Below, one piece after another: positions 8,534-19,448 of a DNA stretch of 26,573 bases. The position numbers were made by a program, and so were the translations under genes. Position 1 is the first letter of the stretch, and each line of letters starts with the position of its first letter. The notes below the pieces were generated by a model, which had not been told where the DNA came from, searched no databases, and saw only the letters and a list, made by a program, of their open reading frames with translations. The DNA is taken from the IMG/VR virus record IMGVR_UViG_3300031601_003551, positions 1 through 26,573 of that record; one strand, written 5' to 3'. The DNA is from a virus.

Positions 8534-10699
8534 TCAAGCAGTGCCAGTATTCATCTGAGCGGCACGGCAGTCCTGCTCCTTCACGCCGAAGTCAAGGAAG
8601 CCGCGGAACTGAATGCCCAACGTGTTGAAGTCGGCCTCGGCCGTCTCGACGGTCGGGTTCTGCACGCCGTTGAGGAACGCGACCTCGAGGGCAGCACGAC
8701 GACGCGGATCGTCAAACAGATACCAGGCCGTGGTCGAGTATCCGGTGATCGCCGAGTTCGACAAGTATGCACTTGAGACGGGGCGATACTTGCTGGTATG
8801 AGGGTTACGGTTCGGTTTCGGCTTGTTGGCCGTGGTGGTCTCGTTGACCCCCTTTTCGTTGTACAACAGGTCGGCCGTTTCCTCGAGGTCCACCGGGACG
8901 CAGAGGATTTTCGGATCAGCACCCAAGGGTGTTCCGTTCGGCTTCTTTTGCTTCTTGAACGTCGTGACCGCCGTGCTCAGGGCACCAATCGACAGTGCCG
9001 TGGCCGCGCCCTCGATCAGGTTGTCGTTATCAGCGTGGAAGAAGCTGTCGGGATTGGACAGGAGCAGGGTCCAGACCGCGGAGTTGATCTTGTCGCCGCA
9101 TCCCATGCCAATGGCCTTGGGGAGAGCGGAGAAGGCCGACAGGTCGTCGTTGATGATCATCTGACGAGTCAGAGAGAACATCTTGCCGTAGGTCGCGATC
9201 TGCTGAGTGAACTGCTCTTCGTCCAGTTCGCCATGCTTCAATTCGCCATCGGCTCCGACTTCCTCGAATTCCATATCCGTCAGCATACGATGACGGGTAT
9301 GCTGTTTGAAGTCGTTGACGCTGGCAATCGCAACGATTTCACGCCAAGTTTGCTCGGAGTAGTTGAACCCCTCGAGCAGCATCTTGTTGGCGGAATCCTG
9401 CAGGATGAGCGGCAGATCGACGGTCGAGAACGAAGCCCGAATGAACTCCGTGCCGAGGCCTGACCAAGCGGGGAGCTGTCGCCCTTCGAGCGAAGCCGCG
9501 GACCGCATGAAGTCGCGGATCGAGTTGACGCGATTCTTTATCGCGAAGTCGGTGGGTTTCTCGCCGTAGTTGGCGGCGACTTTGTCCTCTGCCATGCCGC
9601 CGGAAAAGCAGAACATGGCGCGTAACGAAGCAGACGAACCTTGGCGATCGACGACGTGCGCCGCCGGTGCCGAGGGGAGTTCGGCCTTCATGACCTCGAG
9701 GGTCAATTTGTCCTCGGTCCAATCGTCTCGCACCGCCTGGGCCTGCAACTCAGGATGATTTACGCCGATCTTCGCGACCATCGCAACTCGTTCGAAGTGA
9801 GCCGCGGCTTGTTCCTTCTGACGCTCGAGGGCGGTGGGTTCTTTCGGCTTCGCGACGGGCGCTGCCGGCTCGATGACTGCCACCGGTGCGACGGGATCGA
9901 TAACTGCCGCCGGAACGACGGGCACCGCTGGATCGACGGGCACCGCTGGATCGACGACTGCCGCGGGGGCGACGGGTTTTGTTGGGGTGATTTTACTTAC
10001 GGGCACAACATGCTCCTTCTGGAAATTTAGTAACGATTGTGGGGCATTGCGGAACCCTTCAAGGCTCGCGAATGCTTTCATGTCTTGGGGTTCGGTAACA
10101 GTATCAACGAAGCCGTGTTCCTTCGCCTCTGCTGCTGTGAACCAGGTCTCGTCGTCGAGCCAATTTGAGATCGTGTCCACATCTTGCCCGGTACGGGTTG
10201 CATATGTGGTCACCAGTGAATTCTTTGCCTTACGTAACATCTCTGCCGCCTTGACCATGTCGCTTTCGTCGCCAGCTGCGACGGACCATGGATTGTGGAT
10301 CATGATCAAGCCGTTTTCGGCGATCGATATCTCTTCGCCAGCCATGGCGAGCAACGATGCGGCCGAGGCTGCTATGCCGTCGATCGCAACGTCACAACCG
10401 CCTTTGTGGCGGCACAGTGCGTTATGGATGGCAGTCGCCTCATGAACGAGCCCGCCTAGGCTGTTAATCCGAACCATGACTCGTGCGTTGGGGGCCTGGT
10501 TGAGTTGTTCGACGATGCTCTTGGCCGTAATGCCATTGCCATCCCAATCCTCGTAGCCGATCTCGTCATAGATCAGCAGCTCGAAGGCCTCGGCTGTCTG
10601 GTTCCGGATCGCGAACTTAAAGTTGCGGGACGCACTATCGTACGTGGCCAGGTCAAACGCAGCACTGTTTTTGATTTGGAGGTTGGGATTACTTCTCAT
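8534..10699 (-). CDS. ClpP-like prohead protease fused to gpT-like major capsid protein
   Basis: Numbering here is from the upstream ATG at 10729. Residues 45-215 form a ClpP/S49-like serine protease with the nucleophile in GIAASAAS (Ser122), a His in IMIHNPW (His145), and an acidic residue in LDDETW. Residues 245-300 are a Pro/Val/Ala-rich linker. Residues about 375-731 resemble the Mu gpT-like major head protein. The protease would cut scaffold and capsid precursors during head maturation, probably releasing the shell protein at the linker. ATGs lie at 10729, 10717 and 10699; I chose the last because it overlaps the portal stop least. The first two codon blocks (MTKK, MRTTKK) come from a short local duplication. 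The fusion means no separate scaffold or protease gene is needed. Confidence 0.88.
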   Translation of the reverse strand: MRSNPNLQIKNSAAFDLATYDSASRNFKFAIRNQTAEAFELLIYDEIGYEDWDGNGITAKSIVEQLNQAPNARVMVRINSLGGLVHEATAIHNALCRHKGGCDVAIDGIAASAASLLAMAGEEISIAENGLIMIHNPWSVAAGDESDMVKAAEMLRKAKNSLVTTYATRTGQDVDTISNWLDDETWFTAAEAKEHGFVDTVTEPQDMKAFASLEGFRNAPQSLLNFQKEHVVPVSKITPTKPVAPAAVVDPAVPVDPAVPVVPAAVIDPVAPVAVIEPAAPVAKPKEPTALERQKEQAAAHFERVAMVAKIGVNHPELQAQAVRDDWTEDKLTLEVMKAELPSAPAAHVVDRQGSSASLRAMFCFSGGMAEDKVAANYGEKPTDFAIKNRVNSIRDFMRSAASLEGRQLPAWSGLGTEFIRASFSTVDLPLILQDSANKMLLEGFNYSEQTWREIVAIASVNDFKQHTRHRMLTDMEFEEVGADGELKHGELDEEQFTQQIATYGKMFSLTRQMIINDDLSAFSALPKAIGMGCGDKINSAVWTLLLSNPDSFFHADNDNLIEGAATALSIGALSTAVTTFKKQKKPNGTPLGADPKILCVPVDLEETADLLYNEKGVNETTTANKPKPNRNPHTSKYRPVSSAYLSNSAITGYSTTAWYLFDDPRRRAALEVAFLNGVQNPTVETAEADFNTLGIQFRGFLDFGVKEQDCRAAQMNTGTA
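9921..9956. repeat. Two perfect 18-bp tandem repeats in the protease-capsid linker
   Basis: GGCACCGCTGGATCGACG occurs twice in direct succession. In protein it encodes repeats of PAVPVD in the Pro/Val-rich linker between the protease and capsid domains. Slippage here would lengthen or shorten the linker without breaking the frame. Confidence 0.85.
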
Positions 10700-12236
10700 C
10701 TTTTTCGTCGTCCTCATCTTTTTCGTCACTGGGTACAGGTTCGACCACCGCGGTGGGACCGTATAGTTTTTCCTTGATCAGTTCACGAAGTTCGTCAACC
10801 GTAATGTTCAACGCGTCGGCCTGGCGGGTCAGCTCGACCTCGTAGTCCTTGCCCTCTTTCGCGTATTCGGCGGGCAGGGTAGTCGAACCGTTTTTCAACT
10901 TGACGTTTTGGGCATCAGCTTCCTTTTTGGGGTCCGCATGCCCAATGCCATCCCAGAACCATTGATGCGGGATCAATGGCTTGAACTTAACGCCCTTCGG
11001 GAGTACGCCGGGGATCAACCTGGCCATCGATAACCAGAGTTCGAACAGTCGATCGAGGACGTCCAGCTGGATGTCGTGACGCTCGATCTGTACTGTTCGT
11101 TGGAATGCTTGGATGTCGAGCCGGCCACTGGCATAATTGTGATCACCAGCGTATCCCGAAGCGACGATCAGAGGCATGCTGACGCATCGTGCCATCTGTC
11201 GTAGCATCTGTTTCATGAAGTCCGCACATTCGGAAGTCGGATGCTCGGCCCGCAACTGCGTCGGTTTGAACCCGAAGGGGAGCACCATGCCGATATCTCG
11301 CTGGGGCAGGTCCACTTCGTCCAACGGATAGGAGATTACCTCCTCATTGCCCGCCGCCGTATCGGCATCACCGTACGGGTCGGGCTCGTCAGTGTGGATC
11401 AGTAGGGAGAAGCTCGCGGCCTTCTCTGCAGCCGACACGACAGCCAGCACGTATCGCCGCATGTCGGCAAATAGCATCAAGGCTGGAGTCAATTCGGGGA
11501 TACCACGATGTTGCCCAGGCCGGTCCTCGCGGAACATATGCACCATCGACTTGGCCGAGATCGGCGTCGGGTCATTGGTGATATTGAGGATCGATGTTTC
11601 GCCTGGATGCTCGGGCAGCAAGTGGTAAGTCTTGGGGTTGCCGTCGCCATCGAAGTCGATGCCGTCAACCGCATTTGTTTTGTAGTCGTACGGCGACGGG
11701 CCGTGCGAGATCTGGTCGGCCTCAATCAATTTAAAATCCAGCGGCACCGGACCGCTGATGCCGCTGTTGACGATCATCATCAAGAACGATTCGCCATCAA
11801 CGGCTTTTGTTCGACGGGCGGTTCGAAGCTTACGGGCTGCTCGAGTCGAGTTCAACCAGGTGTTGAATGCGGATTCGACCCTGCGATTGTCTTCGCTATT
11901 TGCGGTCAAGAGCTGCAGCCGCGGACCGGTGCCAACAGTCTCGTTCGACAGCGACAGCATCATGCCGGTGGCGTCGGAGTTGTTCGCTACTTCATATCTC
12001 GATCGATTGCGAAGGACTCGCCGCACTCCCGCGTTGTTGGCCGCATCAGCAGACAATGAATCAACCAGAGCCCAATGGGTCAGGTTGTCGGGCGATTGAC
12101 GCGCAGCGTCATACTTCGCAGATGCTGGCCGAGCCCCGACCTGCATAACGCGATTATTGCCTCGATTACGAATCCGGTTTGCCGGTTTCGAGCGAGAGCG
12201 GGAACTAGGTTTGCGGGGAGGGACGTGGACATTCAC
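10689..12236 (-). CDS. Portal protein (lambda gpB-like, 515 aa)
   Basis: This is a head portal subunit, the ring through which DNA is pumped and to which the tail joins. The N-terminus is Arg/Lys-rich and disordered (1-40). It is followed by the typical lambda-type pattern: a DSLSADAANN segment, Arg-rich RRVLRNRSRYE, then GPRLQL and FNTWLNS, ending in a DGESFLMMI strand. The C-terminus is highly acidic (DEKDEDDEKDEK). It starts with GTG in a GTGA overlap with the stop of the gpW-like gene. Its length is normal for this family. It follows the terminase and gpW-like genes and precedes the protease-capsid gene, as in lambda. Confidence 0.88.
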   Translation of the reverse strand: MNVHVPPRKPSSRSRSKPANRIRNRGNNRVMQVGARPASAKYDAARQSPDNLTHWALVDSLSADAANNAGVRRVLRNRSRYEVANNSDATGMMLSLSNETVGTGPRLQLLTANSEDNRRVESAFNTWLNSTRAARKLRTARRTKAVDGESFLMMIVNSGISGPVPLDFKLIEADQISHGPSPYDYKTNAVDGIDFDGDGNPKTYHLLPEHPGETSILNITNDPTPISAKSMVHMFREDRPGQHRGIPELTPALMLFADMRRYVLAVVSAAEKAASFSLLIHTDEPDPYGDADTAAGNEEVISYPLDEVDLPQRDIGMVLPFGFKPTQLRAEHPTSECADFMKQMLRQMARCVSMPLIVASGYAGDHNYASGRLDIQAFQRTVQIERHDIQLDVLDRLFELWLSMARLIPGVLPKGVKFKPLIPHQWFWDGIGHADPKKEADAQNVKLKNGSTTLPAEYAKEGKDYEVELTRQADALNITVDELRELIKEKLYGPTAVVEPVPSDEKDEDDEKDEK

Positions 12237-12492: not shown

Positions 12493-12675
12493 TTACGTAT
12501 CTGTAACTTCTGACTGGATTCGTTCTCGAGTCTGGAATCGTCGACCGCAGTAACGACACTCACGGAGACGTACAATCTGATGCTTGGTCCGGTGGCGAGT
12601 GTAGACTACCTTGAGATGCCGGCAGTGGCACCGCGGGCACCGAATGCCCACGCCAAGTGGTTCGCTGTCGGTCAT
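12493..12675 (-). CDS. Small NrdR-like / Com-like zinc-ribbon protein (60 aa)
   Basis: The ATG overlaps the terminase stop (AAATGA). Residues 13-48 carry CPRC and CRYC pairs around a basic stretch, the pattern of a Cys4 zinc ribbon. The arrangement CPRC...RLRECRYCGRRFQTRE resembles the N-terminal zinc ribbon of NrdR, but the ATP-cone domain is absent. It should bind nucleic acid. It could be a regulator such as the Com type, or a packaging accessory. The call of a zinc ribbon is firm; the role is unknown. Confidence 0.7.
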   Translation of the reverse strand: MTDSEPLGVGIRCPRCHCRHLKVVYTRHRTKHQIVRLRECRYCGRRFQTRERIQSEVTDT

Positions 12676-14816
12676 TTAGATTTCTTCCGTTTCTGGTATT
12701 CGGCCAGTGAGATTCTAGCCCGACGTTTATGTTTTCCACCAGAGGTTGCCAGCTTCACGCCGATCAGGCTGGCCGCAACGGCAGCCCCAGCGACATTGTC
12801 GAGATAATGGTTTTCACGGTGCTCGGGGTATTCTTTCCATTCATCAACTTCCCGGCCGCGGCCGAATGTTCGAATTCGGTACTCACCATGCAGCTGCTCG
12901 GCAAACATCTGGTGTTCAACTGGATCTGCCTGGAATAAAGCCAGGCTACCGGGGTCACCCATCGATGTGGCAAACCGGGCATGGATGAACGACTTAAAGT
13001 GATTGACGTCGTAGAGCAGATGCCGGGTTGTTTTGGTCCCTCGCTTTCGAGCGGGCACTCGCCAATTATTCCCCACCAGGTCGCCGCGTTTTTTCACATA
13101 CTCGTTGAATGGTTTCGAGGAAGCTGCCCCAGCCTGGCCGTGGGCTGGCATCAGGATGCTGGCATGTGGTGACTGGCGGCAGAACTGATAGACCGCATCA
13201 GTCGATCGACCCCAGTTCGCATCGACAAGACATTTGTTGATCCGCAGTGGGGAACCGTCGTCGCGGAACCATTCCTTGGCCAATGTTTTTTTCGTTAACG
13301 CATCGAGGCCAGCATAGAGACTGCCCTCGAATCCGGCACTAGGGTACTTAAGGGCCAGCGTCTGCCTGGCCGTGGCTGCGGTGAAGTACGGAGCATGCTG
13401 TTCAGGATACGTTCCATAGTCGATGACGTCGCCCGTGAACCCCTCGCCCCAGGCTACAACCGTGTAGTACAGCAAATTGAGCTGGACATCGATGTGCATG
13501 GTCAGCCACTGGGCCTCGGTCCGGATCTCTTTTCGTTTCATCCCGTTGACCTTCTTCGCGATCTCCGATGCGGTCAAGATCGTGACGTCACCAAGGTTAT
13601 CCTCGAGAGGTGAGTTCTGATATTCCGCCGCGAACACTCGTTCGTTCTGGAATTTCTTATTCATCGCATGCTGGATCGCCGACAGTTCATCCTCGTCGTA
13701 CCGCTCTTCCCACGCGATGATGGCACCGAGGTCCATGGCAGCTCGATTCTCGCGATAGAACTCCGTTGCCGGCTCGATGCCTTTGTCCTCTTGTAGCGAC
13801 CGAATCCGAATCCGGTTGTAATCCTCCCAAATCTTGATGTCATTGGGGAACGAGTAAACCATCTTGGTCCGTTGCCCTTGCCACTGCGGATGCTTCTGCC
13901 GATCGAGGACATTGTCGGCCATGTCGCCTGGCCGGATCACAGTGCAGGGCATCACGCCCGCTATCTTCTTCCCAGGCCCCGCCAGGCCGAGTACGGCTCC
14001 AGCTACCAAATTCTCGCGGGTGGCACACTGGAGCGGGCTGCGGGCCGAGTCGTCGGTCTGTGGGTCGTCAAGGACAACCAGGTCAGGTCTCACGACCCGA
14101 CCATCCGGCCGTTTCCAGTTCATCCCGCGAATCTGGCCGGTTAGGCCGACGACACGGATGACAGCACCGCTGGATTTACTGTCCTTGATTGTGGGTAACG
14201 TGATCTGCTTACTTGTCCAATTGATCAACGTCCGGACACCAAACTGCAGCTGGCCAGTGGTTCGGTTTGCAATTCCCTCGAGCCGATTAATCGGATAACA
14301 GACCTCGGGGAAGTCCGCGGCTAGTCGAGTATTGTTTTGGATCTCCGACTTAATCGATACAAGCATGTTCTCGGCATGTCGTTCCTCCGGTCCGATGATC
14401 GCGACAAAGTCCCGATAGCCGTAGAGGATTGCCCAGATGCATGCGATCTCGCACATGCACGTCTTGCCGGAACCTCGAGGCATCGCCAGGGCGAACAATC
14501 CGCCTTTGCGAACCGATTGCTCAATTCGCTTTGCGGCAAGCCCTTGGTCCTTCGACCAGGCCATGAAGAAAGTGTCGGGAAAGTATTCACGACAGAAGAA
14601 CAAGAAGTCTTCCGCCGCCTTTGCTTTCCGACGAGGAGCAAGGACCGGCGGGAGCTTTCCTATGTCACGGCCAGCTTTTGACGCTAGCGCATTCCGTTCA
14701 CGCGCAGCTGCCTTATGGGCTTCGTAACGCGCGTCATCAGAGACAAGGGATTTCGGCCGTGCCAATCGATCACCAAAAAAAAGAAGGAGGGAGCCAGGGG
14801 CTGCATGTAGTTTCAA
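12672..14816 (-). CDS. Terminase large subunit (lambda gpA-like)
   Basis: This is the ATPase-nuclease motor that packages DNA. Walker A is PRGSGKT at residues 113-119, Walker B is LVVLDD near 246-251, and acidic nuclease residues lie in HIDVQ (Asp443), CLVDANWG and HYLDNVAGA. The tail is Lys/Arg-rich. It has the size of large GpA-type terminases. The start is uncertain: the 5'-most option is a TTG at 14816 without a clear ribosome binding site and would give a Leu/Phe-rich head encoded by a T8 tract. A TTG at 14765, preceded by GGTGA, is as likely. No separate small subunit gene is evident; it may lie elsewhere or be absent. Confidence 0.9.
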   Translation of the reverse strand: MKLHAAPGSLLLFFGDRLARPKSLVSDDARYEAHKAAARERNALASKAGRDIGKLPPVLAPRRKAKAAEDFLFFCREYFPDTFFMAWSKDQGLAAKRIEQSVRKGGLFALAMPRGSGKTCMCEIACIWAILYGYRDFVAIIGPEERHAENMLVSIKSEIQNNTRLAADFPEVCYPINRLEGIANRTTGQLQFGVRTLINWTSKQITLPTIKDSKSSGAVIRVVGLTGQIRGMNWKRPDGRVVRPDLVVLDDPQTDDSARSPLQCATRENLVAGAVLGLAGPGKKIAGVMPCTVIRPGDMADNVLDRQKHPQWQGQRTKMVYSFPNDIKIWEDYNRIRIRSLQEDKGIEPATEFYRENRAAMDLGAIIAWEERYDEDELSAIQHAMNKKFQNERVFAAEYQNSPLEDNLGDVTILTASEIAKKVNGMKRKEIRTEAQWLTMHIDVQLNLLYYTVVAWGEGFTGDVIDYGTYPEQHAPYFTAATARQTLALKYPSAGFEGSLYAGLDALTKKTLAKEWFRDDGSPLRINKCLVDANWGRSTDAVYQFCRQSPHASILMPAHGQAGAASSKPFNEYVKKRGDLVGNNWRVPARKRGTKTTRHLLYDVNHFKSFIHARFATSMGDPGSLALFQADPVEHQMFAEQLHGEYRIRTFGRGREVDEWKEYPEHRENHYLDNVAGAAVAASLIGVKLATSGGKHKRRARISLAEYQKRKKSK

Positions 14817-14843: not shown

Positions 14844-16349
14844 TTAAAAATAAAGCCTATGCATTATTTCTGATTGCATTTCTGCCCGTACATTATCCAA
14901 TTCGCCATCAAGTGATGGCACAGAACCGCCTAATAGCTTCAGCAGTGTAACGTATTGCGTATCCACGACGCCAGCGGCGAGGCCCTCATAATGCCGCGTA
15001 TCGATCGGACCGCCTCCACCTGGGTAAGTATAGCAACAATCACGCCCATCGCCGCCGCCATCCTCGTCCGTCCAAATGTCGGGACCATCGGGAGTTTGAT
15101 AAGCGTAATTGCAGCATCCGGAAAATCCACTATCTACTAATTCCAATCCAGACCGTCGACGAACCCTGTCTGGTAATTGGGACGAAGAAATTTCGTATCT
15201 CCAGACATCCACACCCATATTTCGCCACGATGCAATTATTTCGGGTAATCCTGCTTTTTGAGGATACCCTTGATTGATGACTGCGATGTCAATGCGTCCA
15301 TCAGCACGTTCATGTAGATCATGGATGTGTGGCCAGTATGTCGTCGCTAAAATGCCGACATCATACTTACTAGCCAAGGACCAATAGGGGAATTGCTCGT
15401 TAACCTTTTTTCCATGGGCTTCATCTGTGGCATAGCCATAGATTTGCTTGATACCTAATTTTTCACATTTAAGTTTAGCTTTAAGGAATTCGATTTCTCT
15501 AGTTTGTAAATCCGTAACCCCAAAGTTAAGCCCCACGTCAAGCCTCGAGTGAAACAATGGATCAACACACACACCAGCCAATCGTCGCAATTTTATTGCA
15601 TCCTCGAAGTAGGGGCTATCAATAAATTCGTATATTGACGGCTGCGTTATGCCGTGGGCTTTCATGTTTTTCAAATCGGCAAAATAATCCCTCTTCGATT
15701 TAACATGCTGCTGTAATTTTGGGGCCACATTTGGGTCCAAATGGGCACGATAAAACATGCTGTAAATCATGTCCGACGCAGGCAAGGTGAACGGCAAAAC
15801 ATTAATCTCAACCGTGACTCGTTCTACAATTTCACCACCTACGGACAATGCAAGACTGAACTGGTAATCACCATGCGTACAATTGCTTGGAACGACGATG
15901 TCAATCCAGTATTGCTGAGTGTGGTTCGCCGGTAGATCGATGGGCTGCAATACCTCGGCGTCGACTTGATCGGTAGGATATTCATTCACGCCCACAGTGG
16001 ACGATGGCACAACGAAACGAGGATCTTTCACCAATAGCTCGGACTGTAAGATCGGCTTGGGGGTCCAAACGGTTGAAACCCCCGCCTGCCACCAGACCAT
16101 CGCGTAACGAATATCGATCGACGGCATCACATCACGATAGATTTCTCCGGAGTCAACCGCAATCCACTCGCCACGAACGGTCAGTTTATCCAATGGCTCC
16201 TCAGACCATACGCAAAAGGATACCGCTCGCCTTTCACCTTTTGCTACACGAACACATTGTCGCACACCACCATCATTAAGTGATGGTGGTGTGCTTGGAA
16301 ATATATGAGTATCAGATATGGCCTGAACCGGCCACGTTTGAATATTCAC
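14844..16349 (-). CDS. DUF4091/GH123-like glycoside hydrolase-type protein (501 aa)
   Basis: The gene lies between the tailspike and the terminase and starts with GTG just after the tailspike stop; the preceding GAGG is a plausible ribosome binding site. Residues 1-190 form a beta-rich N-terminal domain with a VLPFTLP end, as in GH123-type enzymes. Residues 215-420 resemble a TIM barrel with an Asp-Glu pair (Asp309-Glu310 in YATDEAHGK), where GH123 enzymes carry their catalytic pair. The C-terminus has a GDG.xCCYTYPGGGGPIDTRHYEGL arrangement typical of DUF4091 (GDG..YPG..GP..S.R.E). It may cleave a host surface glycan. The DNA is much richer in AT than its neighbours (two 60-base lines at 40% and 32% GC against 65% in the terminase), suggesting a separate origin. 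There is no signal peptide, so it may be a virion part. Confidence 0.75.
   Translation of the reverse strand: MNIQTWPVQAISDTHIFPSTPPSLNDGGVRQCVRVAKGERRAVSFCVWSEEPLDKLTVRGEWIAVDSGEIYRDVMPSIDIRYAMVWWQAGVSTVWTPKPILQSELLVKDPRFVVPSSTVGVNEYPTDQVDAEVLQPIDLPANHTQQYWIDIVVPSNCTHGDYQFSLALSVGGEIVERVTVEINVLPFTLPASDMIYSMFYRAHLDPNVAPKLQQHVKSKRDYFADLKNMKAHGITQPSIYEFIDSPYFEDAIKLRRLAGVCVDPLFHSRLDVGLNFGVTDLQTREIEFLKAKLKCEKLGIKQIYGYATDEAHGKKVNEQFPYWSLASKYDVGILATTYWPHIHDLHERADGRIDIAVINQGYPQKAGLPEIIASWRNMGVDVWRYEISSSQLPDRVRRRSGLELVDSGFSGCCNYAYQTPDGPDIWTDEDGGGDGRDCCYTYPGGGGPIDTRHYEGLAAGVVDTQYVTLLKLLGGSVPSLDGELDNVRAEMQSEIMHRLYF
16262..16294 (-). other. Perfect 14-bp stem-loop near the start of the glycosidase gene
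   Basis: The arms GCACACCACCATCA and TGATGGTGGTGTGC are exact reverse complements around a 5-base loop, TTAAG. The structure covers codons about 19-30 of the glycosidase gene, 55 bases after its GTG. It is far stronger than any other hairpin I found. No T-run follows, so it is not a classic terminator. It might slow or attenuate translation or transcription of the gene. Confidence 0.85.
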
Positions 16350-16350
16350 G

Positions 16351-18072
16351 CTACGCCTCTGCTACGGCTGAAATGCAGTCCCATTTTGAGTCTGCGGAAT
16401 TGTATCGTAAGTGAACGTAATTGGTTTTTCCATCGGCAACCGTGGCGGGGAGCGTGGCCGGGATAGATTGATAAACGGCATTCCACGTCAGCGTCCGCGG
16501 ACCGCCGCTCGCCAGAATGCGAATCGTCAGCTCCTGTCCATTGACGGGCGTGCCAAGCGGTGCGTTGATTGCAGCATTTACGCCCAAAGCCGTGATATCG
16601 TACTGGCCTTGTTCACTGGCCCATGGCGTAAGACTAGCTCCCGTCGTAACCGTATAGGGCGCCGACAGCGCGTTGATATTGTCTCGCAATGTCCAATCAG
16701 CGAAGGCCAGATTGGTTGCGGGAGTGATCGCCATCGCGGTCCCGACAAATCGATTGCCGATCAATTCACAGTCCGTATACGTATTGATGTCTGACGCGGC
16801 AAAGCGGAAGTCGTATGCAGAACCATCGCCCCATACAAAGGTATTATTGCAAATGCTCACACCTTCAAACGTCTCCGTTCCCGCGCCAAAATCAAACGTC
16901 CGATATCCGGATTCGAATGTGTTACCATCCATCCGCATAAATTGGATATCGCAGCCGTCCGAACCGGTAATTCCATTTTTCGCATTCGCGAAATGATTGT
17001 TTGAAATGAGTGTGTAGTAAACTTTGCCCAACCAAATCATTTCAACCGACGTTGCCCCCCCGGTCAGCCACGAATTGGACATGTTATTTGTGAGCGATAC
17101 ACGCTCGCAATTCTCCAAGCGATATCGTGTGGCTGCACCCGGCGTCTCTTCTTGTAAGATGTTTCCATCTACTAAAATGTCGGTACACAGTTCAGTTGAA
17201 TTTTTCCCCTTAATGTAAATAAGGTTATATGCTGCGGCAACACTGTTATAAATCGTATTCCCGCTGATGACCACATTGTGACAGGCTGAACCGCTTGCAA
17301 CGTTGTGGGAACATACATAGATCCCATTGGGTTTTGCGGAGTCGGCCGGAACGTAGCCGTCCATGATGATGCGATTGCCCGTAATAACAATATGCTCTGC
17401 ACCGTCCTGCACCTCGATGCATGCGGGACTCCCATGGCTGCCCTTTTCCGCCGGATTTGTAATCAAATTTCCGGCAACGTAGACGTACTGGCACATATCA
17501 TTTACGCCAATAGAGTCGTCTGTCGACCCATTGATCGTATTATTTACGACTCGCACGTTGACACAATAGGTCAGCTCAATACCTGCTCCGTGAGCATCAC
17601 CAATCGTGACATTCTGGATGTCGACCCGCAAGCAGTTTTTAAAGTCAACACATCCCGCATTTCCTTTTGCGTCGGTGGTGCCGATTCCTGATTGCCCGGT
17701 GGTGTTGCCGTCAATCACCATGTCGCGCAAGGAAATGTCAGTCACCTGTGTCGTTGTGTTTGTGCCGTCCCAACCTTCCTGCGTAATGAATCTGGAGTCT
17801 TGGGAATCCGCGAGAACCAGGATTGTCCCATTACCAGACCCCTCCAGTGTGGTTCCAGATTTCAGCTCGATACGTTCAGCAGTAAACGTGCCTTCCGATA
17901 ATCGGACTACACCGCCATCACTTGGCAATGCGTCGATAGCTGCTTGGATTTGCACATTGTCTTGGGTGCCGTCGCAGATGTAATCAGCTCCTGCTTTCCC
18001 GGCAGCCGGTAATGTCGAACTAGCGACGAAGGTAACACCCCCGCCGCTTGAGTCTATTCCACGTAATGCCAT
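16351..18072 (-). CDS. Tailspike protein with pectate-lyase-like beta-helix (573 aa)
   Basis: The ATG shares an A with the upstream stop (TAATG); a longer reading from 18162 would overlap the upstream gene, so I reject it. Residues 30-75 hold the motif around DYICDGTQDNVQIQAAID followed by LPSDGGVVRLSEGTF, the standard entry to a right-handed parallel beta-helix. Residues 100-430 show repeated short strands with NNT and ITGN turns, as in pectin-lyase-like folds. Residues 470-573 form a C-terminal beta domain. Such trimeric spikes bind and often degrade surface polysaccharide. No catalytic residues could be assigned. The pairing with the glycosidase-like gene next to it fits a polysaccharide-recognition module. 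Confidence 0.85.
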   Translation of the reverse strand: MALRGIDSSGGGVTFVASSTLPAAGKAGADYICDGTQDNVQIQAAIDALPSDGGVVRLSEGTFTAERIELKSGTTLEGSGNGTILVLADSQDSRFITQEGWDGTNTTTQVTDISLRDMVIDGNTTGQSGIGTTDAKGNAGCVDFKNCLRVDIQNVTIGDAHGAGIELTYCVNVRVVNNTINGSTDDSIGVNDMCQYVYVAGNLITNPAEKGSHGSPACIEVQDGAEHIVITGNRIIMDGYVPADSAKPNGIYVCSHNVASGSACHNVVISGNTIYNSVAAAYNLIYIKGKNSTELCTDILVDGNILQEETPGAATRYRLENCERVSLTNNMSNSWLTGGATSVEMIWLGKVYYTLISNNHFANAKNGITGSDGCDIQFMRMDGNTFESGYRTFDFGAGTETFEGVSICNNTFVWGDGSAYDFRFAASDINTYTDCELIGNRFVGTAMAITPATNLAFADWTLRDNINALSAPYTVTTGASLTPWASEQGQYDITALGVNAAINAPLGTPVNGQELTIRILASGGPRTLTWNAVYQSIPATLPATVADGKTNYVHLRYNSADSKWDCISAVAEA

Positions 18073-18326
18073 TAGAGTACGCCTCCCACTACTGTGATGA
18101 TGTCGCCCGACGTGCCTTTGACCCTGATGTTGGCCAAATTGATCAACGGCAGTTCGTGCCATTCGCCTGGCTCCAACGGGATCTCGTCACCGAGGTCGCC
18201 TTCAAGTGATACATTGCCGGTATTCGTCGATGGCGCGGTGATCGTACCGGACACGATCTCGTTGTTGGCGGACAACGCTTGCCATGCTGTTGTGATCGTA
18301 ATCTTACGACCGATTAGTGAGTTCAT
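18072..18326 (-). CDS. Small virion-associated protein upstream of the tailspike (84 aa)
   Basis: The ribosome binding site is GAGGAATAAA before the ATG. The protein is beta-rich with a segment around PLEPGEWHELPLINLANIRVKGTSGD, a sequence style seen in small tail or head proteins where a Trp-rich turn precedes an Asn/Val strand. It has no signal peptide or membrane span. The TAATG overlap with the tailspike gene suggests coupled translation, perhaps as a tail fibre attachment protein. I do not recognise a named family. Confidence 0.6.
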   Translation of the reverse strand: MNSLIGRKITITTAWQALSANNEIVSGTITAPSTNTGNVSLEGDLGDEIPLEPGEWHELPLINLANIRVKGTSGDIITVVGGVL

Positions 18327-18380: not shown

Positions 18381-19448
18381 TTACCGGCGAGTACGTGTTG
18401 ACTTCTTCTTCGCAGCTCGCTTCCGGACCAGTGGTTCAGGGGATATCGTCTCCACCTCTACATCCTTTTCATTGTCGGCCAGGTCGAGTCGATCCAATAT
18501 GCCGTTAATAGCGTCGGTCACCTTCTTGTAGGCACTGTCACTAAGGAGGGGTTCCTTCCCCGACTTTTTTCGCCAAGATCGGAAGACGGTAAATCCCCAA
18601 AGTGCGATCGCAATAATTGCAAGCCAGGAAAATCCCCCGCTCATCAGGCCGAGTAGACTTGCCCAGGGAAAAGTCAGTAGTGGGGCCGCATCAAGAGGCG
18701 GGATCTGAAACTGATTCACGGGCGGAGCATTCGGCTGGAAAGGTCGCCATGGCTCTTTCGGGTCGGTTTCAGGGGCAGGTGTAGGTGTCCATGGGCAAGG
18801 AGCGTTACGGTCCTGATCGGCGATAGGGGCAGCGACAATGGGCAACGGGGCAACGTCTCGACCGTGCTGTGCATCAGGTGCAGGTTGCCGCGTCGGGACA
18901 ATTTGCACTTGCGGTGCGATCTTTCGAACGTACCTTTTTACTGTCGAAACAATCCGCTGTGCCATGGCCTTGGGACTGCCACCGTAAGCACCCTGGAAAA
19001 CGACAATCGATGAGTCGCCGTATTTCCCTGATTCCGGCGGCTGCACCAATACTGTAGGGTAGGCCTCAAATTTAACATTCTCAAATTGCCAGTTCTGACT
19101 TTTATTCTCAATCATGTACTCGCAATAGTGAGCCCATGATTCTTTTGGTGCATTCGGGTCGGCTAGCGCTCGCAGCCAGGGGTCGGACCGCCAGGCTTTT
19201 TTCAATTCGAGACAAGGCTGGCACCCCTTCGTCGAGATGACGGAAATGAACCACTTGTCGACATCGCTGGTTGGCGGCTTCATAGCCTCGATCACGGCAT
19301 CGGTGCCGTTGGTCTGGTGGCCACCGTTGATGTGCTGGGTAGTATTCCCCAGCCGGGCAACTTCTGCCGTATGTACGGCGTCGAGCCCCTGGGCCGACAC
19401 GCAAAACGCAGTCAGCAAGAGCACGCAGGAGAGAAATGGGTTACGCAT
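18381..19448 (-). CDS. Secreted, membrane-anchored thioredoxin-like protein (355 aa)
   Basis: Residues 1-20 are a signal peptide (basic start, hydrophobic core, then SAQG). Residues 60-175 resemble a thioredoxin fold: a strand ending in FISVISTKGCQPC with the CQPC active site at 76-79, a long insert, and YPTVLV with the expected cis-Pro at 131. Residues 180-250 are Pro-rich. Residues 262-290 form one membrane helix, followed by a cytoplasmic tail with a Lys/Arg-rich end. It should sit in the inner membrane with the redox domain outside. A phage could use it to fold or break disulfide-bonded envelope or virion proteins. The role is inference; the domain order is visible. Confidence 0.72.
   Translation of the reverse strand: MRNPFLSCVLLLTAFCVSAQGLDAVHTAEVARLGNTTQHINGGHQTNGTDAVIEAMKPPTSDVDKWFISVISTKGCQPCLELKKAWRSDPWLRALADPNAPKESWAHYCEYMIENKSQNWQFENVKFEAYPTVLVQPPESGKYGDSSIVVFQGAYGGSPKAMAQRIVSTVKRYVRKIAPQVQIVPTRQPAPDAQHGRDVAPLPIVAAPIADQDRNAPCPWTPTPAPETDPKEPWRPFQPNAPPVNQFQIPPLDAAPLLTFPWASLLGLMSGGFSWLAIIAIALWGFTVFRSWRKKSGKEPLLSDSAYKKVTDAINGILDRLDLADNEKDVEVETISPEPLVRKRAAKKKSTRTRR

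Follow-up and report, generated by a model that had tools for sequence, protein, structure and literature searches.

The gene at positions 14844 to 16349 (minus strand) of a phage sequence is predicted, from its sequence and a model of its fold, to encode a glycoside hydrolase of the GH123 superfamily, whose clade falls outside the GH123 groups compared here. The window, i.e., the whole stretch of DNA analysed, is the 26,573-base virus record IMGVR_UViG_3300031601_003551 (positions 1 to 26,573), and the GH123-like gene within it specifies 501 aa from a GTG start. The open reading frame, the Asp309-Glu310 pair (codons at 15420 to 15425, minus strand) and the C-terminal pattern named in a preliminary description of this DNA were all present, with the C-terminal string reading GDGRDCCYTYPGGGGP. 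The Asp-Glu pair, predicted to serve as acetamido stabiliser and acid/base, was invariant in the clade relatives and aligned with the DE of GH123 enzymes, and the Tyr442-Pro443 codons (15021 to 15026, minus strand), representing the YP that is conserved in the DUF4091 region, aligned in all 18 sequences compared.

Homology, predicted fold and relation to GH123

Standard libraries returned neither a PHROG nor an NCBIfam match for the enzyme. The GH123 N-terminal domain PF22680 was detected at E 2e-5, under the family cut-off, and PF19543 at E 0.006, and among solved structures searched by sequence the best matches were GH123 enzymes (E 8e-4). Scanning of genome contigs with the enzyme alone yielded no match, and a GH123-profile scan of the same contigs recovered only Bacteroidota GH123 among the 80 loci retained. 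Clear full-length relatives were identified in 2 of 395 Bacteroidota genomes, the clade having been sampled in Bacteroidota genomes only: G460 (E 8.8e-41, with paralogues; L105, L110, L111, and L116) and G546 (E 6e-25; L106). The only relatives found were cellular, as anticipated when the gene type was first described as mostly bacterial. Similar motifs (YGIDEA, YRRNYG, and WEGFRE) probably occur in other phyla as well. The G460 and G546 proteins resemble the phage enzyme over their full length (about 23-28% identity) and share its DE, YAYQ-type, and YP motifs as well as the Tyr replacing a GH123 Trp; unlike it, they are cellular, have hydrophobic N-termini where read, and in some cases are multidomain. 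About 65 columns were invariant between the phage enzyme and these relatives, including W148, D309, E310, A311, G313, Y385, R397, R398, G411, Y415, A416, Y417, Y442, P443, T451, E455, and G456. Moreover, the clade profile matched the GH123 profile with 98.7% probability (E 4.7e-16; the two DE pairs coincide in the alignment) and still reached 98.5% when the phage sequence was left out; against solved structures, its best matches were NgaCa (E 1.2e-9) and NgaDssm (E 3e-9).

The fold was modelled from a six-sequence alignment, with a mean pLDDT of 61 and a pTM of 0.65; a single-sequence AlphaFold2 model (mean pLDDT 32) was useless and was discarded. Foldseek placed the six-sequence model with GH123 (E 7e-21, TM about 0.6), in agreement with a second structural aligner, for which the top 17 matches were all GH123 (Z 18.3-21.9, 402-430 residues aligned, rmsd 3.8-5.1 A). 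The best of these was 8k2j (Z 21.9, 417 residues, spanning 7-496), and the first unrelated folds, also barrels, appeared at Z 14 over about 210 residues. The model combines an N-terminal beta-sandwich, a (beta/alpha)8 barrel, and a DUF4091-type region in one chain, which is the GH123 layout. Barrel strands, assigned by the author from the DSSP string of the model rather than from coordinates, were 195-200, about 236-241, 265-267, 303-306, 332-338, 355-359, 381-385, and 411-418. Only the overall fold is claimed, because the stretches 63-135 and 418-448 were poorly modelled.

In this model, residues 309-310 lie just past the fourth strand (303-306), at the expected barrel mouth, so that alignment and model together place a consecutive catalytic-type Asp-Glu pair where GH123 enzymes have it. 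In GH123, the DE pair comprises the acetamido stabiliser and the acid/base, and retaining, substrate-assisted hydrolysis of beta-GalNAc or beta-HexNAc has been described (PMC11087588). The beta-N-acetylgalactosaminidases NgaDssm (8k2j, GH123 Group 3) and NgaCa (8k2f, Group 1) are alike in predicted fold (Z about 21-22), in the DE after barrel strand 4, and in a DUF4091-like C-terminal region, whereas their identity to the phage enzyme is about 14-18%, their Trp and Arg are Tyr and His in the phage, and they form a separate clade (100/100 support). Sequence, profile, and fold thus bear out the proposed GH123/DUF4091-type enzyme. The preliminary description had named the lack of a TIM barrel, or a DE pair away from the barrel mouth, as grounds for dropping the idea; the model, at low-to-moderate confidence, contains the barrel and has the pair at its mouth.

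A survey of GH123 gathered 734 sequences with PF13320 and distinguished five groups (GH123 and Groups 1-4), with nine residues conserved across all of them (PMC11087588). The phage enzyme carries six of the nine (W148, D309, E310, Y385, G411, and Y442) and hence not the complete set. The substrate-contact Trp (W431 in GH123) is Tyr415 in the phage and Tyr throughout the clade, the DUF4091 Arg (R478) is His453 in the phage and Gln in relatives, and the N-domain Asp (D95) had no clear equivalent in the phage enzyme. As two of the nine invariant residues differ, including the change of the substrate-contact Trp to Tyr, specificity may have shifted. PF13320 (DUF4091/GH123_cat) gave no match to the phage enzyme at E up to 1 or to its relatives at E up to 0.1, and the clade was therefore probably outside the published survey. 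Furthermore, in an 18-sequence tree, the phage enzyme and its relatives formed a group apart from GH123 (100/100 support); the phage branch was long, and the tree tool warned of long branches. In view of the residue differences, the PF13320 result, and the tree, the enzyme is called GH123-like here, with a GH123 type of action presumed, and is not filed in the described groups.

The phage and the neighbourhood of the gene

Contig IMGVR_UViG_3300031601_000005 (37,140 bases) was 100% identical to the window across the 17.5 kb compared; its bases 10568-37140 match the window, base 1 of which is contig base 10,568. The source of the window is a tailed phage. On the minus strand, primase-like genes are followed by the genes for a CxxC membrane protein, a beta-helix tailspike-like protein, the enzyme, and the terminase, and then by those for a lambda-type portal, a ClpP-capsid fusion, cement and head-tail joining proteins, the tail tube, and the tape measure. 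The virus record, classified as linear, may not be complete. Among 50,697 phage records, none was closely related (best identity 28-29% for the terminase and 33% for the capsid). With regard to the host, a tRNA search of the phage sequence found none, and the phage sigma factor provided no clear lead.

Several other genes of this phage were also observed. The fusion at window positions 8534-10729 joins a ClpP-like head maturation protease to the major capsid protein in 731 aa (cf. Pseudomonas phage F10). The product of positions 18381-19448, directly before the tailspike gene, is 355 aa long and combines a signal-peptide-like N-terminus with a transmembrane segment and a thioredoxin-like CxxC motif (CQPC). 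The phage contig also encodes, left of window base 1, a very glycine-rich 993-aa protein with long GGxGG-type tracts (L003:7586-10567), which weakly matched a collagen-like minor tail PHROG and might function as a long tail fibre or an adhesin. Downstream of this gene lies that of a 264-aa sigma-70-family factor with regions 1.2, 2, and 4 (L003:6311-7105).

The enzyme gene was placed between tailspike and terminase at the outset, and both neighbours were recovered. Upstream, the tailspike-like gene (16351 to 18162, minus strand, 603 aa) matches PF13229 (E 4e-6) and PHROG tail and tail-spike families (PHROG 11699 and 7458); its true start may be an internal ATG near 18072. The 84 C-terminal residues of the spike (16354-16605) form a stand-alone module that also occurs in phages of Mycobacterium and Tsukamurella (identity about 42-45%), where the records listed annotate it as hypothetical. 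Downstream, the terminase large subunit gene (12672 to 14816, minus strand; PF20454, E 6e-24; PHROG 38, E 9e-39) begins 27 bases after the enzyme gene. The GTG start of the enzyme is one base apart from the tailspike stop codon, and a ribosome-binding-site-like AGAGG, read in the sequence, lies 6 bases before the GTG within the end of the spike gene (16356 to 16360, minus strand). The one-base junction and the upstream AGAGG favour synthesis of the enzyme in coordination with the spike. Promoter and terminator scans around the enzyme gene scored at or below chance.

Base composition gave a smaller contrast than first described. The enzyme gene has 47.1% GC (GC3 44.8%), compared with 55.8% (GC3 63.5%) for the terminase, 51.1% (GC3 53.5%) for the spike, and 53.7% for the window overall. 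It does lie below its neighbours, but the size of the difference had been overstated: the gene has 47% GC vs 56% for the terminase and falls short of the other genes by 1.6 SD, with still lower values in some early genes. The values of 40%, 32%, and 65% given originally look like those of single lines rather than of genes, and 60-base windows inside the enzyme gene range from 25 to 68% GC. A contrast of about 1.6 SD is a weak basis for late-acquired cargo and does not on its own show recent acquisition, and recent horizontal transfer was thus rejected as an explanation drawn from GC alone.

Candidate substrate and mode of action

The genomes G460 and G546 share the gene order GT1, heparinase II/III-like, GT1, WecA/MraY-type GT4, and GH123-like enzyme (L117:10876-18687 and L118:9443-17171), which looks like an undescribed exopolysaccharide operon, the exopolysaccharide link resting on two genomes. 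L105 and L106 lie within these exopolysaccharide-type operons, whereas the phage copy adjoins a tailspike. The enzyme probably hydrolyses a host surface polysaccharide or exopolysaccharide that contains acetamido sugars. The target was originally suggested to be capsule or wall glycan; a wall target is unlikely for the superfamily, and surface polysaccharide or exopolysaccharide is better supported. By analogy with GH123 biochemistry, catalysis would be substrate-assisted and directed at a beta-linked 2-acetamido sugar (GalNAc or a related one): Asp309 would hold the acetamido group in place and Glu310 would act as acid/base. The gene context of the relatives points to an extracellular host polysaccharide as the likely substrate. 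Synthesis would take place in the host cytoplasm, probably alongside that of the tailspike, and the enzyme would reach the outside without Sec, either on the virion with the spike or freed at lysis, where it could open or clear polysaccharide for adsorption or for the spread of progeny.

A hydrophobic, export-type N-terminus was present in the three relatives read and missing in the phage enzyme, so that extracellular action would need virion assembly or lysis. Alignment with the relatives also revealed little beyond the enzyme core and no recognisable virion-attachment domain. The tailspike junction and the missing export-type N-terminus are consistent with the enzyme being part of the virion. 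In the strict form of the best explanation, it would be a virion-bound depolymerase, an accessory of the tailspike acting before infection, which is quite possible if short of probable: its start one base past the spike stop, the AGAGG inside the spike gene, and the late structural genes on both sides agree with this reading, whereas the lack of an extra domain for attachment and the location of spike and enzyme upstream of the terminase, away from the tail genes, speak against it. The same bare core, with neither an export-type N-terminus nor an attachment domain, would also suit a soluble enzyme that builds up in the cell, is released at lysis, and then clears exopolysaccharide so that progeny disperse, and the high late expression expected from the late-operon position would serve this role; against it, the junction hints at a functional link to the spike, and release at lysis is possible, if slightly less so than assembly on the virion.

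The cytoplasmic type of N-terminus and the polysaccharide biosynthesis operons of the relatives would likewise fit a metabolic cargo enzyme that, during infection, breaks down precursors or intermediates of host polysaccharide inside the cell. Such a role appears unlikely, given that the N-termini of the relatives are export-type, that known GH123 enzymes act on exported glycans, and that the position next to the spike does not favour it. An endolysin role, in which the enzyme would act on peptidoglycan, is very improbable. The gene products scanned included no recognisable endolysin, and one GH123 group consists of beta-N-acetylhexosaminidases also taking GlcNAc (PMC11087588); against this, no GH123 enzyme described in that survey acts on peptidoglycan, the possibly incomplete linear record may lack genes, and an unrecognised lysin is likely because many small phage genes have no family.

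Rarity among viruses and implications

When 50,697 phages were searched by tblastn, no match was obtained with the whole enzyme or its catalytic half, nor with a GH123 enzyme or a relative from the clade. Among viral contigs, queries with the enzyme, the GH123 profile, the clade profile, and a mixed profile recovered only the same phage (IMGVR_UViG_3300031601_000005), and two scans with putative motifs of the family found, besides the phage itself, only unrelated proteins. Predicted viral structures (BFVD) showed no full-length overlap with the model (best TM by query 0.30). Phage-encoded barrel glycosidases do occur in BFVD (GH5-like and beta-N-acetylhexosaminidase-like), but they belong to other families, and even the top-ranking viral structures show poor overlap with the model (TM by query <=0.30). 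A literature search found no paper on a phage GH123. This rarity is bounded by the collections and by pattern-based scanning, and is no proof of absence.

Known phage depolymerases are mostly beta-helix spikes. The role proposed here, cutting host surface polysaccharide, is like that of beta-helix tailspike depolymerases, but the fold is different, and the beta-helix spike of this phage is the neighbour rather than the enzyme. Taken as a whole, the enzyme may represent a new GH123-related subfamily, tied to exopolysaccharide operons, with altered substrate-contact residues and a barrel fold absent from the phage proteins searched, which was captured by a phage, has no export signal such as its relatives have, and acts as a tailspike-coupled exopolysaccharide depolymerase; this combined reading is tentative, and we lean somewhat against all of its parts holding together. 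If true, a GH123-like enzyme beside a beta-helix spike would add a fold and an acetamido-sugar specificity to phage depolymerases. Furthermore, the clade, outside the GH123 groups compared and exopolysaccharide-linked in two genomes, could be tested as a source of new enzymes that cut glycans, for which the phage gene offers a compact version without an export signal for expression.
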